Assembly (NCBI GenBank): GCA_027037535.1
Contig: JALVZQ010000003.1
Span: forward strand, 1-64,000
DNA: 64,000 bases
Source: Acidilobaceae archaeon
GTDB lineage: Archaea; Thermoproteota; Thermoprotei_A; Sulfolobales; Acidilobaceae
Direction: 5' to 3'
The notes under the pieces were generated by a model. It did not search any database. It saw nothing but the letters and a program-made list of their open reading frames with translations, and was not told where the DNA came from. Shown in pieces: positions 45,304 through 49,575 of the stretch (position 1 is the stretch's first letter; each line of letters begins with the position of its first letter). The translations under genes and the position numbers were made by a program.

Positions 45304-46296
45304 TCATCTCTGGCATGGTTCCTCTCTCACAATCGGCCTCCTGGATCTAGTAGGATAGGCCTCGATTAGGGTAGAACCAGGCATGCACTCGTGGCTGACG
45401 GGAAAGCATGTGTTGTTCGCATCTATTGAGTAGTATAGGAGTGTTCCGTCACGTGTTACACTTTCACACCATCTTCTGTCGAGAACCGCGGTGTTTCTTA
45501 GTCGGTTTCTTGTCTGTATTTTATCTTTAAATGTGGCGGGACAGAAGTGGACGGGTATTGATACGTTTTCACGTGCCCATTCGACGATTCTTATTGCTGC
45601 CTCTAGGGCTCCTTCAACTGTAAATGGGCGTTTTTTACTTTCTCTATATCCCCTTATCATGAGTTGTCTTGCGTTTGGAGAAACAAATTCTAGCTCGTTC
45701 AAGTTCACGAACTCTGCTCCTACCTTATCCGCGTAAAGTATTATCTTCTTTGCCCATTCTAGGAGGCCGGGAGCAATAGGGATCTCGACTCCTGTACTAA
45801 TAGATGTGTAACTGACTGCTAGTTTGATTTTCTCGAGGAAAGAGTCATGTGTAGGATGGAACCGTATTTCGTCGAGGCCAATTTGGTCAAGTCTCGATAA
45901 AACGTTCCTAGTAGCATATCTTCCACTTGTATAGAGATGTATATGGAAACTGTATCCAAAGTTCTCCTTTAGGGATTTTATAACGTGGAATACTCTATGT
46001 GGGACGGTTAAAGGATCTCCTCCTGTGATACTGGCTCCGCTGGCACCACTCCTTGCGACCTCGAGTATAATGTCATCGATTCTATAAACAGGTTCTTCGT
46101 TCACAAAGATCACGTCATGCCCAAGTTTCTCACGGCTAACGGGGCAGTAGAAGCACCCGTCATCGCATAATCCTGTGATGAATATAACTGCCTTTAACCC
46201 ACCGAAGCAGAGATTACATCCCTGCGCCATATAGGGCCTAGAGAGTAGTGCTCTATCCGGTGCGCCCAATCTTAGCATCCGTGATAACCTATTCAT
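45304..46296 (-). CDS. Radical SAM protein
   Basis: A 330-residue protein with a radical SAM core: CDDGCFYCP (Cys-x3-Cys-x2-Cys, near residues 44-51) binds the 4Fe-4S cluster, and GASITGGDPL is the SAM-binding GGE-like loop. An upstream CNLC (residues 27-30) and C-terminal Cys residues (HFCPATF, CFPVSHEC) may bind another metal. It resembles archaeal radical SAM proteins of the pyruvate formate-lyase-activating type. The substrate is unknown. Confidence 0.85.
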   Translation of the reverse strand: MNRLSRMLRLGAPDRALLSRPYMAQGCNLCFGGLKAVIFITGLCDDGCFYCPVSREKLGHDVIFVNEEPVYRIDDIILEVARSGASGASITGGDPLTVPHRVFHVIKSLKENFGYSFHIHLYTSGRYATRNVLSRLDQIGLDEIRFHPTHDSFLEKIKLAVSYTSISTGVEIPIAPGLLEWAKKIILYADKVGAEFVNLNELEFVSPNARQLMIRGYRESKKRPFTVEGALEAAIRIVEWARENVSIPVHFCPATFKDKIQTRNRLRNTAVLDRRWCESVTRDGTLLYYSIDANNTCFPVSHECMPGSTLIEAYPTRSRRPIVREEPCQR

Positions 46297-46411
46297 GCAA
46301 TAATATGGCGGAGCTTAATATGGAAAAAACACATACACTCCCACACATCTAGGCCTAAAGAAAATCCTAGAACACTTCAACTATGAGATAAATGATAAGA
46401 CTGTCACCTCA

Positions 46412-46465
46412 TGGTGCGGTGATTCGAACCCACGCAGGCCCACGCCATCGGGTCCTAAGCCCGAC
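46412..46465 (-). repeat. tRNA-Leu 3' fragment (distal attachment site)
   Basis: It begins with the CCA complement and contains GATTCGAACCCACGCAGG, then CCATCGGGTCCTAAGCCCGA. This matches the T arm, variable arm and anticodon arm of the Leu tRNAs at 47979 and 56016, with a 4-base deletion in the acceptor part. Its anticodon reads TAG, like the gene at 56016. It ends at the anticodon stem. Confidence 0.83.
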
Positions 46466-46935
46466 ATGGAAGAGGCACCTATTATTCCGAGCAACACAAG
46501 GTAATCATGACAATACATTATTTTTGAAGCAGAAACTAGGAATAAATGTTTCTCAAAAATGCTAAGATATCGGTTTCTCTAGTATACTGATCTAGGTCTA
46601 CTAGTCCTCGAGGCGACACATCACAGCCTATAAGCGGCTGGCTAAAATGCTTTGTGGAGAATAATAATAGTGCCTGCGAGGAATTCAACTATATGAAAAG
46701 TAAGAAGAGTAGAAAAGATGCCCACGTCCCAGGAGACAACGAGATAAAAACGGGCCTCACAAGGCCTATTAAAGAGCAGAGTTCAATTGGCATAAAGGGA
46801 AACAAACACATCTTCTGGTACACTTCCTCGAGAAACCCGAAGAGAAAACAGTAAACCTTTCGGGAAGCTACAAGAGACAAGAAAAGCTCTGGGCCTAGCA
46901 GGCTTCAAATATATGATGAAATACGTGGCCACTAA
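46466..46935. other. Left interior of the tRNA-Leu element, no clear gene
   Basis: After a 12-residue continuation of the integrase-like frame (MEEAPIIPSNTR, stop at 46504), no gene with recognisable homology is seen. A 66-codon open frame at 46654-46854 is lysine-rich and unconvincing. The region may hold the decayed C-terminal part of the integrase. Confidence 0.4.
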
Positions 46936-47145
46936 ATGCTAGAACTAGGCGTGCCAGTAGTAATCACCTCATACAAAGTCAGAATACCCCCAAAGCAATA
47001 CAGGCTAATAGCTTTCGTCGATGCCCGTAACGGTGTCCCGAGCCTCGTAGTAAACATCCTTAAGAGAAGCAACGTAGAGGTACACGTGGACAGTATAGAA
47101 CTGGCTCCCCAGCAGGCGAATGGGGCCTGGTTCGAGTGGGGGTAG
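46936..47145 (+). CDS. Small hypothetical protein of the tRNA-Leu element
   Basis: A 69-residue protein (VPVVITSYKVRIPPKQYRLI, then SLVVNILKRSNVEVHVDSIE). Its strand-rich composition and good codon use suggest it is real; no family is recognised. It is followed after five bases by a one-helix membrane peptide on the same strand. Confidence 0.5.
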   Translation: MLELGVPVVITSYKVRIPPKQYRLIAFVDARNGVPSLVVNILKRSNVEVHVDSIELAPQQANGAWFEWG

Positions 47146-47150
47146 AAGGC

Positions 47151-47255
47151 TTGTGGTACCAGGATCCCCTAATGTTCGTAATGATAATGTTCGTGGCGAG
47201 CGGAATGATATACCTAGGCTATAGGCTAGTAAAGACTATCCTCGACCATCTCTAG
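47151..47255 (+). CDS. Single-helix membrane peptide of the tRNA-Leu element
   Basis: A 34-residue open frame starting with TTG: WYQDPL, then a hydrophobic helix (MFVMIMFVASGMIYLGYRLV) and a short polar tail. It is below usual gene-calling size limits. Spacing to the preceding gene suggests co-expression. Small one-helix proteins are common in archaeal viruses and plasmids. The 3' end overlaps the opposite-strand gene by 20 bases. Confidence 0.4.
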   Translation: MWYQDPLMFVMIMFVASGMIYLGYRLVKTILDHL

Positions 47256-47454
47256 CTATTATTCTTTTGAGCCCTGAAACTAGCTCGCTTGTCGAGAGTT
47301 TTCCGCTGGCCCATTCATCAAGCATATTCTCCACGACCCTTTCCCCAGCCTTCTCCGCGGCCCTCTCAGCGAGATCATGTATTCTTGCCAGCCTTCTCCT
47401 CATTTCGACGACTCTAGGATTAGGCATGTTCCTCACCAGTCCTATGGTTAACAC
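47236..47454 (-). CDS. Small basic helical protein of the tRNA-Leu element
   Basis: A 72-residue protein rich in Arg, Ala and Glu (RVVEMRRRLARIHDLAERAA, then LDEWASGKLSTSELVSGLKR). It is predicted to be two or three helices. No family is recognised. Its composition differs from the flanking core genes. It is convergent with the two small plus-strand genes. Confidence 0.5.
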   Translation of the reverse strand: MLTIGLVRNMPNPRVVEMRRRLARIHDLAERAAEKAGERVVENMLDEWASGKLSTSELVSGLKRIIARDGRG

Positions 47455-47822
47455 ACGGGATGCCTAGCCTTATAGCTTTTGTTCGGCTATTGCTGCTGCT
47501 TCTGCTAACGTGTCCATGCCTGGCTTTCTTGCCCGCTTAACGTTGAGTGAATCCCCTGCTACTGCTACTTGCCAATCTGTTTGCTGGCTAGATCATCTGG
47601 TTGCTCGCTAAGAGAGTAGAACCGCCTTACTAGCGGTCTCGATTCTATACATACAGGCGATCCTCGCAAACACCTATAATCTGCTTCAAGGTGACCTAGC
47701 CAGGTTTTTGAAGTCGAGTCTAGCAAAAACCCTTTGAAGCAAGCGTTTTAGAGGGTGTTAATACCGTGCATAACAGGTTAGATAGAGGCATTCTAGGAAG
47801 TTCTCAAACAGGCGACTTCAAA

Positions 47823-48110
47823 ATGTATGTCTACATTAAGCGTACAAAGACAAACAACTGGACGTACTATTATCTCGTCATAGAAGAATACCTCGGCAAT
47901 GGTAAAAGGAGACAGATCGCACACATACCACTCAAGAAAATACTAGAACAATTCAATGTTAACGCCGAAGACGTTAGATGGTGCGGGGGGTGGGATTTGA
48001 ACCCACGCAGGCCTACGCCATCGGGTCCTGAGCCCGACCCCTTTGACCAGGCTCGGGCACCCCCGCGTCCTCGCCAATTATACGTGTCTAATTCAATCAC
48101 AGGTTATTAA
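47823..48110 (+). pseudogene. Integrase N-terminal fragment, int(N), running into tRNA-Leu
   Basis: The frame opens with MYVYIKRTKTNNWTYYYLVI, then EYLGNGKRRQIAHIPLKK, the usual N terminus of archaeal tyrosine recombinases. It then reads RWCGGWDLNPRRPTPSGPEP through the antisense strand of the tRNA-Leu gene and ends at 48110. In SSV-type elements the attachment site lies inside int, so integration leaves such an N-terminal piece beside the intact tRNA. The tyrosine catalytic domain is absent. A GTG at 47766 is in frame, but ATG 47823 fits the family. Confidence 0.75.
47979..48066 (-). tRNA. tRNA-Leu(CAG)
   Basis: The minus-strand cloverleaf has acceptor GCGGGGG/CCCCCGC, anticodon stem TCGGG/CCCGA with loop CTCAGGA (anticodon CAG), a long variable arm (GATGGCGTAGGCC region), a T arm with GGGTTCAAATCCC, discriminator A and encoded CCA. 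No intron. It hosts the integrated element to its left. Confidence 0.95.
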
Positions 48111-48207: not shown

Positions 48208-49575
48208 GTGGGCGTACTGGATATACTTGCAGCAATTGCTGACAGATTTCCTACAATAGAGAAACCAGTGCCGAAACCTTCATTGTATAGAAGACTTGCG
48301 TGGACGGGTGTTGTCCTCGTATTATACCTTATTATGACTAATATTCCGCTCTATGGGATACCTGAGCAGGTCACTGGATCTACTATTACTCTTCAACAGA
48401 TTATCTTTGCCAGTAGCGCGGGCACATTAATGGAGCTTGGTATCGGCCCCATTGTCACGGCAGGACTCATACTACAGGTGCTTGCAGGTGCGAAAATAAT
48501 TGATATCGATCTATCGGACCCAGATGCAAGAAAAACATTCACCGCCGCTCAGAAAAGCCTAGCCATATTCTTCGCAATCTTTGAAGCTACAATGTATGTC
48601 CTCGGGAACAAGTATTGGGCCGGAACCAACATAACCCCCTCATGGGAAATAAAGATCATTGTTATCGCACAGCTATCGCTAGCAGCATTTATAGTTATTC
48701 TTATGGACGAGATGCTTCAGAAGGGTTGGGGTATAGGAAGCGCGATAAGCCTCTTTATCCTGGCAGGAGTAGCATATCAGGTAATGTGGAGCTTCCTAGG
48801 ATATATCCCCCAAGTAGCAGAAACCTATGGATTCATACCTGCACTAGTACAGAATCCTTCTCCCATGATAATTGCTAGGCCAGGAGGGTATCCTGACCTC
48901 ACAGGCCTCGTGGCAACACTAGCAATAATACTCTTCCTAGTATACGTCCAAGCGATGAGAGTAGAGATCCCAGTTACTTCTCCAAGGATGAGAGGTATAA
49001 GGTCAAAGGTACCATTACAGTTCATGTATGTGACAAACATACCCATACTACTAGTCGGTATACTAGTAGCAGACCTCCAACTCTTCAGAGGAATAATAGG
49101 AAACTTCCTAGGAAATACGCACCCGATATATCAAGCATATGACCAGTTTGTCTATTATATCAGTCCGCCGAGGGGAATAATTACTGCTGTCTCAGACCCG
49201 ATTAGGACAGTGACATTCGTGATTAGCTGGACGATAATGTCAATTATATTCGGATACATGTGGGTAGAACTAGCAGGCCTAAACCCCTCAGAACAAGCGG
49301 ATAGACTAATAAAAAGCGGCCTCGAGATACCTGGAATGAGGAGAAACCCGAAGATCCTAGAGTCAATTCTATCCAAATACATCTATCCACTTACACTGTT
49401 AAGCAGCATAATCGTGGCTATAATTACTGTTGTAGCAGACATATTTGGAGCATATGGTACGGGGACAGGAATACTTCTCGCGGTAGGTATTATAAACCAG
49501 TACTATACAATGATAAGCTACGAGAGAGCCCTAGAGACATTCCCGCTGCTGAGGAAGCTGCTAGGCGAGGGATAA
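48208..49575 (+). CDS. secY: Protein translocase subunit SecY
   Basis: A 455-residue membrane channel with ten transmembrane helices: plug region QVTGSTITLQQIIFASSAGT, helix 5 region MDEMLQKGWGIGSAISLFIL, and cytosolic loop RVEIPVTSPRMRGIRSKVPL. It is the central pore of the Sec61/SecY translocon in the cytoplasmic membrane. It starts with GTG. It is followed after three bases by adkA, as is common in archaeal ribosomal-protein clusters. Confidence 0.97.
   Translation: MGVLDILAAIADRFPTIEKPVPKPSLYRRLAWTGVVLVLYLIMTNIPLYGIPEQVTGSTITLQQIIFASSAGTLMELGIGPIVTAGLILQVLAGAKIIDIDLSDPDARKTFTAAQKSLAIFFAIFEATMYVLGNKYWAGTNITPSWEIKIIVIAQLSLAAFIVILMDEMLQKGWGIGSAISLFILAGVAYQVMWSFLGYIPQVAETYGFIPALVQNPSPMIIARPGGYPDLTGLVATLAIILFLVYVQAMRVEIPVTSPRMRGIRSKVPLQFMYVTNIPILLVGILVADLQLFRGIIGNFLGNTHPIYQAYDQFVYYISPPRGIITAVSDPIRTVTFVISWTIMSIIFGYMWVELAGLNPSEQADRLIKSGLEIPGMRRNPKILESILSKYIYPLTLLSSIIVAIITVVADIFGAYGTGTGILLAVGIINQYYTMISYERALETFPLLRKLLGEG

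Follow-up and report, generated by a model that had tools for sequence, protein, structure and literature searches.

The question raised by this locus is what was inserted into a tRNA-Leu(CAG) gene, and how many times. The gene lies in a window of 64,000 nucleotides from an Acidilobaceae archaeon, the whole stretch of DNA that was analysed. An earlier note had described the place as the relic of one element whose integrase gene (int) was split at the tRNA into an N-terminal half, int(N), and a C-terminal half, int(C). The window is on contig C3 of the genome G000 (1.65 Mb in 8 contigs), and the comparison set consisted of 40 genomes of the family, G000 and 39 others. The contig of G002 in this set does not include the secY side. 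Several genomes are fragmented: in G032 and G006 there are pairs with the tRNA and 38 or 55 bp of its leader in common, and in G010 a contig ends at the tRNA/leader region. The features of the locus are collected in Table 1.

Table 1. Features of the insert in tRNA-Leu(CAG) and of its flanks (window positions)
Feature	Position	Strand	Remarks
Host flank, radical SAM protein gene	45304-46296	-	PF04055, E 9.4e-10; adjoins the empty site of G004, 93% identity
int(N) tail, from about residue 38	46337-46411	+	In frame with the tRNA fragment next to it
Left att, tRNA-Leu 3' fragment	46412-46465	-	TAG anticodon sequence; 6-bp deletion near acceptor end
int(C) ruin	46605-46936	+	tblastn with 9 int(C) relatives
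Putative remnant of a small element gene	47064-47252	+	Weak similarity (E 0.004) to part of the C7 element
Intact 72-aa ORF, cargo gene of tRNA-Leu elements	47236-47454	-	Homologues near tRNA-Leu with int(N)
Short ORF upstream of int(N)	47612-47734	+	Common to other elements (L153, L164, L092)
Right int(N), open frame antisense through the tRNA	47766-48110	+	GTG at 47766; alternative start ATG at 47823
tRNA-Leu(CAG), reconstituted target and right att	47979-48066	-	
Host flank, secY-like gene	48208-49575	+	Named by eye, no family scan; present in 39 of 40 family genomes

The extent of the insert was determined by comparison with G004, a genome of the same genus, in which the hisS-like, radical SAM, tRNA-Leu(CAG) and secY-like genes stand together without the insert and thus represent the empty site. 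A piece of the secY-like protein of G004 is 99% identical to that of G000. The colinear alignment between G004 and the window (about 91-92% identity) ends at 46336 and restarts at 47977, and this gap defines the insert as 46337-47976, about 1.64 kb, in keeping with the roughly 1.6 kb that the earlier note had given for the relic. At the itpa and acad tRNA-Leu loci G000 carries elements and G004 short gaps only, and no match to int was detected at these two loci of G004. When the left and right ends of the insert were aligned with each other, the score was 122, compared with 48 or less in 100 shuffles. A direct repeat of the 3' part of the tRNA is present at both borders, consisting of 45 bp at 93% identity and, past the 6-bp gap, the acceptor end. 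Relative to the local tRNA, the left copy has three substitutions and this gap; the tRNA-Leu 3' fragment recognized earlier does align with tRNA-Leu. Taken together, these results confirm that the segment 46337-47976 is what decay has left of an insertion of the SSV (split-integrase) type in tRNA-Leu(CAG).

The assignment to the SSV type, already proposed in the earlier note, follows from the way in which the gene is partitioned: int(N) reads into the tRNA, and a tRNA fragment precedes the int(C) ruin. The ruin matches int(C)s that in turn match 64 phage records, mostly of Sulfolobus spindle-shaped viruses. The int(C) family matches phrog_5127 (E 3.4e-62), and intact relatives align with PDB integrase domains over the catalytic Arg and Tyr segments. 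The nearest relatives are integrases that contain tRNA sequence. In all these respects the family resembles the class I 'suicidal' integrases (SSV1, SSV2, SSV4-SSV7), to which it is homologous and in which att also lies within the gene and the gene is split by insertion. As in the SSV fuselloviruses, the target is the 3' part of a tRNA and the anticodon loop is inside att. Unlike in those viruses, the target here is tRNA-Leu, in the form of several isoacceptors, the copy in the window is dead, and there is a second int(N) at the left border. Integrases of the pTN3 type also have a split gene and also target tRNA-Leu (PMC8371274), and it could be supposed that the enzyme is of this type or of the pNOB8 type, in which an intact int gene stands beside the tRNA and att is outside the gene. 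Taking into account that att in the window is inside the int frame, that the duplication comprises the 3' part of the tRNA and that the family is homologous to fusellovirus integrases, this assignment is very improbable.

The left border proved to be more complex than the right one. The earlier note had placed it at 46412; the tRNA fragment is indeed there, but the homology starts near 46340, because the fragment is preceded by an int(N) tail of about 24 codons. Behind att, the int(C) half that had been sought near 46466-46935 is present, but only as a ruin. Its pieces, at 46605-46661, 46648-46776 and 46865-46936, are collinear and spread over three frames; they gave 25-42 bits in the best relatives compared with 23.9 bits in the best of 200 shuffles, some of the nine relatives matching one or two pieces only. 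A weak additional piece is at 46524-46559 (E 0.047). By position, and with the assumed catalytic residues of int(C), the ruin passes over the part around the first catalytic Arg, and its end falls short of the Tyr segment, so the window int must be regarded as a dead remnant and not as a working member of the family. Judged from the order and state of these pieces, the left junction is a dead int gene of the form int(N)'-att-int(C).

The origin of the int(N) tail in this junction was studied by comparing it with other int(N)s. Without the tRNA sequence, the tail is 80% identical in DNA to the int(N) of contig C8 of the same genome over 55 bp (E 1e-10), and the DNA score of 57 compares with 27 or less in shuffles (0 of 1000 reach 57). 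The following DNA scores were obtained with eight int(N)s (source in parentheses): 57 (C8), 43 (G011), 39 (right-hand int(N) of the window), 35 (C4), 31 (G016 right), 19 (G032), 17 (C7) and 14 (G016 left). The protein local scores with seven int(N)s were 80 (C8), 77 (C4), 49 (G032), 48 (G016 right), 43 (right-hand), 26 (C7) and 26 (G016 left). A longer linker before the tRNA part is common to the left tail and the C8 int(N). These rankings suggest that the left tail belongs with C8 and C4, and that the right-hand int(N) is of a different kind. A view of the left tail as part of one tandem family was dropped after the int(N) alignments and the protein scores.

As the left tail is of another type than the right-hand int(N), and as int(C) lies behind att, we infer, with a probability of about 0.8, that two different SSV-type elements inserted successively into the tRNA-Leu beside the secY-like gene; either order fits. 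Two points that go against this reading are the shortness of the left tail and the DNA score of the right-hand int(N) to that tail (39), which is higher than that of C4 (35). The same score, which none of 1000 shuffles reached, can be taken in favour of a single insertion in which the left tail is a copy of the right int(N), made by local duplication, as a tandem of one element or by recombination, and tandem insertion at one locus does have a precedent (PMC8371274). In contrast, the left tail is closer to C8 than to the right-hand int(N) in both DNA and protein, and has the longer linker of C8, which makes a single insertion improbable. A further point against two elements is that an intermediate with a single insertion was found on no contig of the genomes compared. 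Of the single-element relic proposed earlier, the relic stands but the single element probably does not, since the left fragment belongs to a dead int gene whose int(N) tail is of another type, and two elements were probably involved.

What is seen directly is how the parts are ordered, that the two int(N)s differ, that there is a ruin, and that the sister site is empty; the course of events behind this may have been as follows. An integrase of this type has att, a copy of the 3' part of tRNA-Leu, within its own gene. Insertion therefore cuts the gene: int(N) then reads into the tRNA, and int(C) comes to lie at the far border, after the tRNA fragment that has been displaced. If an int(N) already resided beside att, the next insertion would create int(N)-att-int(C), a complete but mixed int gene, at the left border. 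The same arrangement would result whichever att of a resident element was used by the second insertion. Later deletions and frameshifts would then have removed nearly everything, including the front of the left int(N), and the same decay would have taken the first Arg region and the Tyr segment of int(C).

The right-hand int(N) is better preserved. The frame at 47823 that the earlier note had seen running antisense through the tRNA is open on the plus strand, and the 95-aa piece starting there matches phrog_5127 'integrase' (E 2.5e-4). Related int(N)s are homologous already upstream of 47823, which makes the earlier GTG start likely. Compared with the C7 element, this int(N) shows 76% DNA identity over 206 bp (47705-47906). 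A search of G000 with the 95-aa piece found itself and nine further places: three full-length int(N)s adjoining tRNA-Leu genes, the left fragment, three tRNA/att copies and two weak matches. A search of the genome with the Pfam integrase family yielded one other gene only.

Between the two borders, the 72-aa ORF has relatives in 5 of the 39 other genomes; the best two (72% in G024, contig C160, and 74% in G012, contig C28) both lie some 5 kb away from a tRNA-Leu gene that has an int(N). That this ORF is still open in an otherwise ruined element, with 72-74% identical copies in two other genera, was noticed separately, and it may be retained for some use. The short ORF upstream of int(N) is 70% identical to L153 and L164 over 23 residues and 40% identical to L092 (E 2e-5 to 2e-3). 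A Pfam scan of four small relic ORFs gave no match.

Related elements are found elsewhere in G000. Two-ended insertions are present on C7 (tRNA-Leu(CAA), about 12 kb) and on C8 (tRNA-Leu(TAA), about 10.5 kb). C4 has an int(N) at tRNA-Leu(GAG); int(C) was found only in C7, C8 and the ruin in the window. Between the C7 and C8 elements, att and int(C) are 95% identical in DNA over 855 bp (L010 4394-5248, L012 2921-3775). Outside this stretch, matches between the two elements are confined to the region of int(N) and tRNA (74% over 268 bp) and to the att copies, and their int(N)s are 44% identical. The difference between 95% for int(C) and 44% for int(N) indicates that each half of the gene has had a history of its own. 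The left att of C7 equals the tRNA of the G004 empty site in 62 of 62 bases, and the present tRNA of G000 at that place differs from it by one; on inserting at C7, the element seems to have exchanged the 3' part of the tRNA for its own version. It has been reported that att mismatches are inherited by rebuilt tRNA genes (PMC3293823). On C4, an exact direct repeat of 126 bp (L011 8086-8211 and 13037-13162, about 5 kb apart) lies on the 5' side of the tRNA. It contains the first 69 nt of tRNA-Leu(GAG) and the leader, with ABC-transporter-like genes between the copies, and could represent either a real insertion or an assembly effect.

The TAG anticodon sequence noticed earlier in the left att, unlike the CAG of the local tRNA, bears on where the element came from. 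The tRNA-Leu genes with CAG (47979) and TAG (56016) are one base apart, at the wobble position. Both the left att and the tRNA could be read in 10 places, among them G001, which was read across two contigs; the anticodons agree in eight and differ in two, the window (TAG/CAG) and the secY relic of G016 (GAG/CAG), and int(C) is ruined in both of the latter. Insertion across isoacceptors would leave an anticodon mismatch, and that of the window is as expected of it. The TAG might also be a random wobble mutation in a decaying CAG copy, uninformative on any other site. The left att is certainly decaying (three substitutions in 45 bp, two of them besides the wobble base, and a deletion), and this explanation is quite possible. 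On the other hand, the substitution is exactly at the wobble base in both mismatched places, for which the chance, reckoned post hoc, is about (3/45)x(3/61) = 0.003, and the TAG of the left att occurs together with its T-loop G in a genuine tRNA-Leu(TAG), that of G036. Most simply, the TAG would be the sequence of another Leu isoacceptor carried in by the element, so that the origin from another Leu site suggested in the earlier note is plausible but falls short of proof. The overlap region of IntSSV1 is the anticodon loop, and related integrases target two tRNA-Glu genes one base apart (PMC8371274). The window holds a fossil att with an anticodon other than that of its host tRNA.

The Leu anticodon also varies between genomes of the family at loci checked by their flanks (L010-L013, L076-L089, L126-L165). 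The tRNA-Leu loci compared were secY, atpE-like, NUDIX-like, acad and itpa. The secY/NUDIX-like loci have CAG/GAG in G000 and GAG/CAG in G011, and the secY/atpE-like loci have GAG/TAG in G029 and TAG/GAG in G036. At L141 of G011, a tRNA-Leu(TAA) lies between itpa- and cdc6-like genes, in the orientation opposite to that of the tRNA-Leu(CAA) found there in G000. Swapping of anticodons by the elements was not established: among the 14 secY loci with an adjacent tRNA-Leu in the orientation of the window, the presence of int(N) was unlinked to a changed anticodon (4 CAG and 2 GAG with int(N); 4 CAG, 1 GAG and 3 TAG without). As a control, the tRNA-Ser TGA and GGA genes were placed in seven genomes. 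They have exchanged places in G016 at L231 (C44) and L236 (C28), while the other placed genes agree at these loci, so swaps are not confined to tRNA-Leu. No swap was detected at five loci in the good genomes G017 and G025, at the secY locus and a GAG locus in G014, G023 and G031, or at the NUDIX-like locus in G023 and G031. Anticodon switching is reported for 1 of 40 archaeal species (PMC3868979).

Arrangements like the left junction of the window were found in relatives. An int(N) stands directly before att at 4 of the 15 checkable int(C) loci with a tRNA-Leu att, the 15 leaving out G007 C41, whose contig starts at att, and two int(C)s, in G012 and G016, without a tRNA-Leu att. The four loci are the window, G032 C155, G016 C10 and G007 C70. 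In G032 the frame across the junction is open (339 aa), and it matches phrog_5127 over nearly the whole model (3.6e-73) and three PDB 'Probable integrase' chains (about 1e-19), which we take to be the SSV1 enzyme. Its int(N) side adjoins a kinase-like gene and lipA (named by eye), and lipA is next to tRNA-Leu(TAA) in G016 and G039; the tRNA(TAA) of G032 is on another contig, so the right border of this insertion is not seen. The junction frame of G016 is also open (353 aa), and may belong to a tandem, as genes resembling those of mobile elements (by eye) are to its left. The contig of G007 C70, which may be an episome, ends within int(C).

Apparently, successive insertions can rebuild a complete integrase gene in the chromosome. 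Reportedly, Redder in 2009 and Krupovic in 2010 and 2019 (cited in PMC8371274) described tandem insertions at one tRNA. Several elements per site are present there, as here; what differs here is that no more than an int(N) stub is left of the first element. Chimeric split integrases in which an int(N) and an int(C) of different origin become one gene are known from the pT26-2 family (Badel et al. 2020, in PMC8371274). The route proposed for them is a homologous inversion between two inserted elements, whereas here site-specific insertions would have followed one another at a single tRNA. That a split integrase could be restored to full length by such successive events is not mentioned in sections 30-31 of PMC8371274, nor did a wider literature search, which did not extend to the older papers of She, Peng and Redder, find any mention of it.

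Most of the locus is ordinary and of a known kind; the full-length frames in the relatives are the part worth testing. Tentatively, and with some doubt, an int(N) stub could be viewed as a landing pad at which the next element rebuilds a full-length integrase of mixed origin without homologous recombination or outside help. By this means 'suicidal' integrases might regain an intact gene and swap their N-terminal part, and the rebuilt enzyme might excise elements and move anticodon-bearing 3' halves of tRNAs between Leu isoacceptor genes; in this view the cases in G032 (339 aa) and G016 (353 aa) would be alive and that in the window dead. How elements with an integrase broken by insertion persist and change their target is an open question (PMC8371274). 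The locus in the window and those in G032 and G016 point to one concrete way, in which elements insert one after another at a tRNA that bears a stub.
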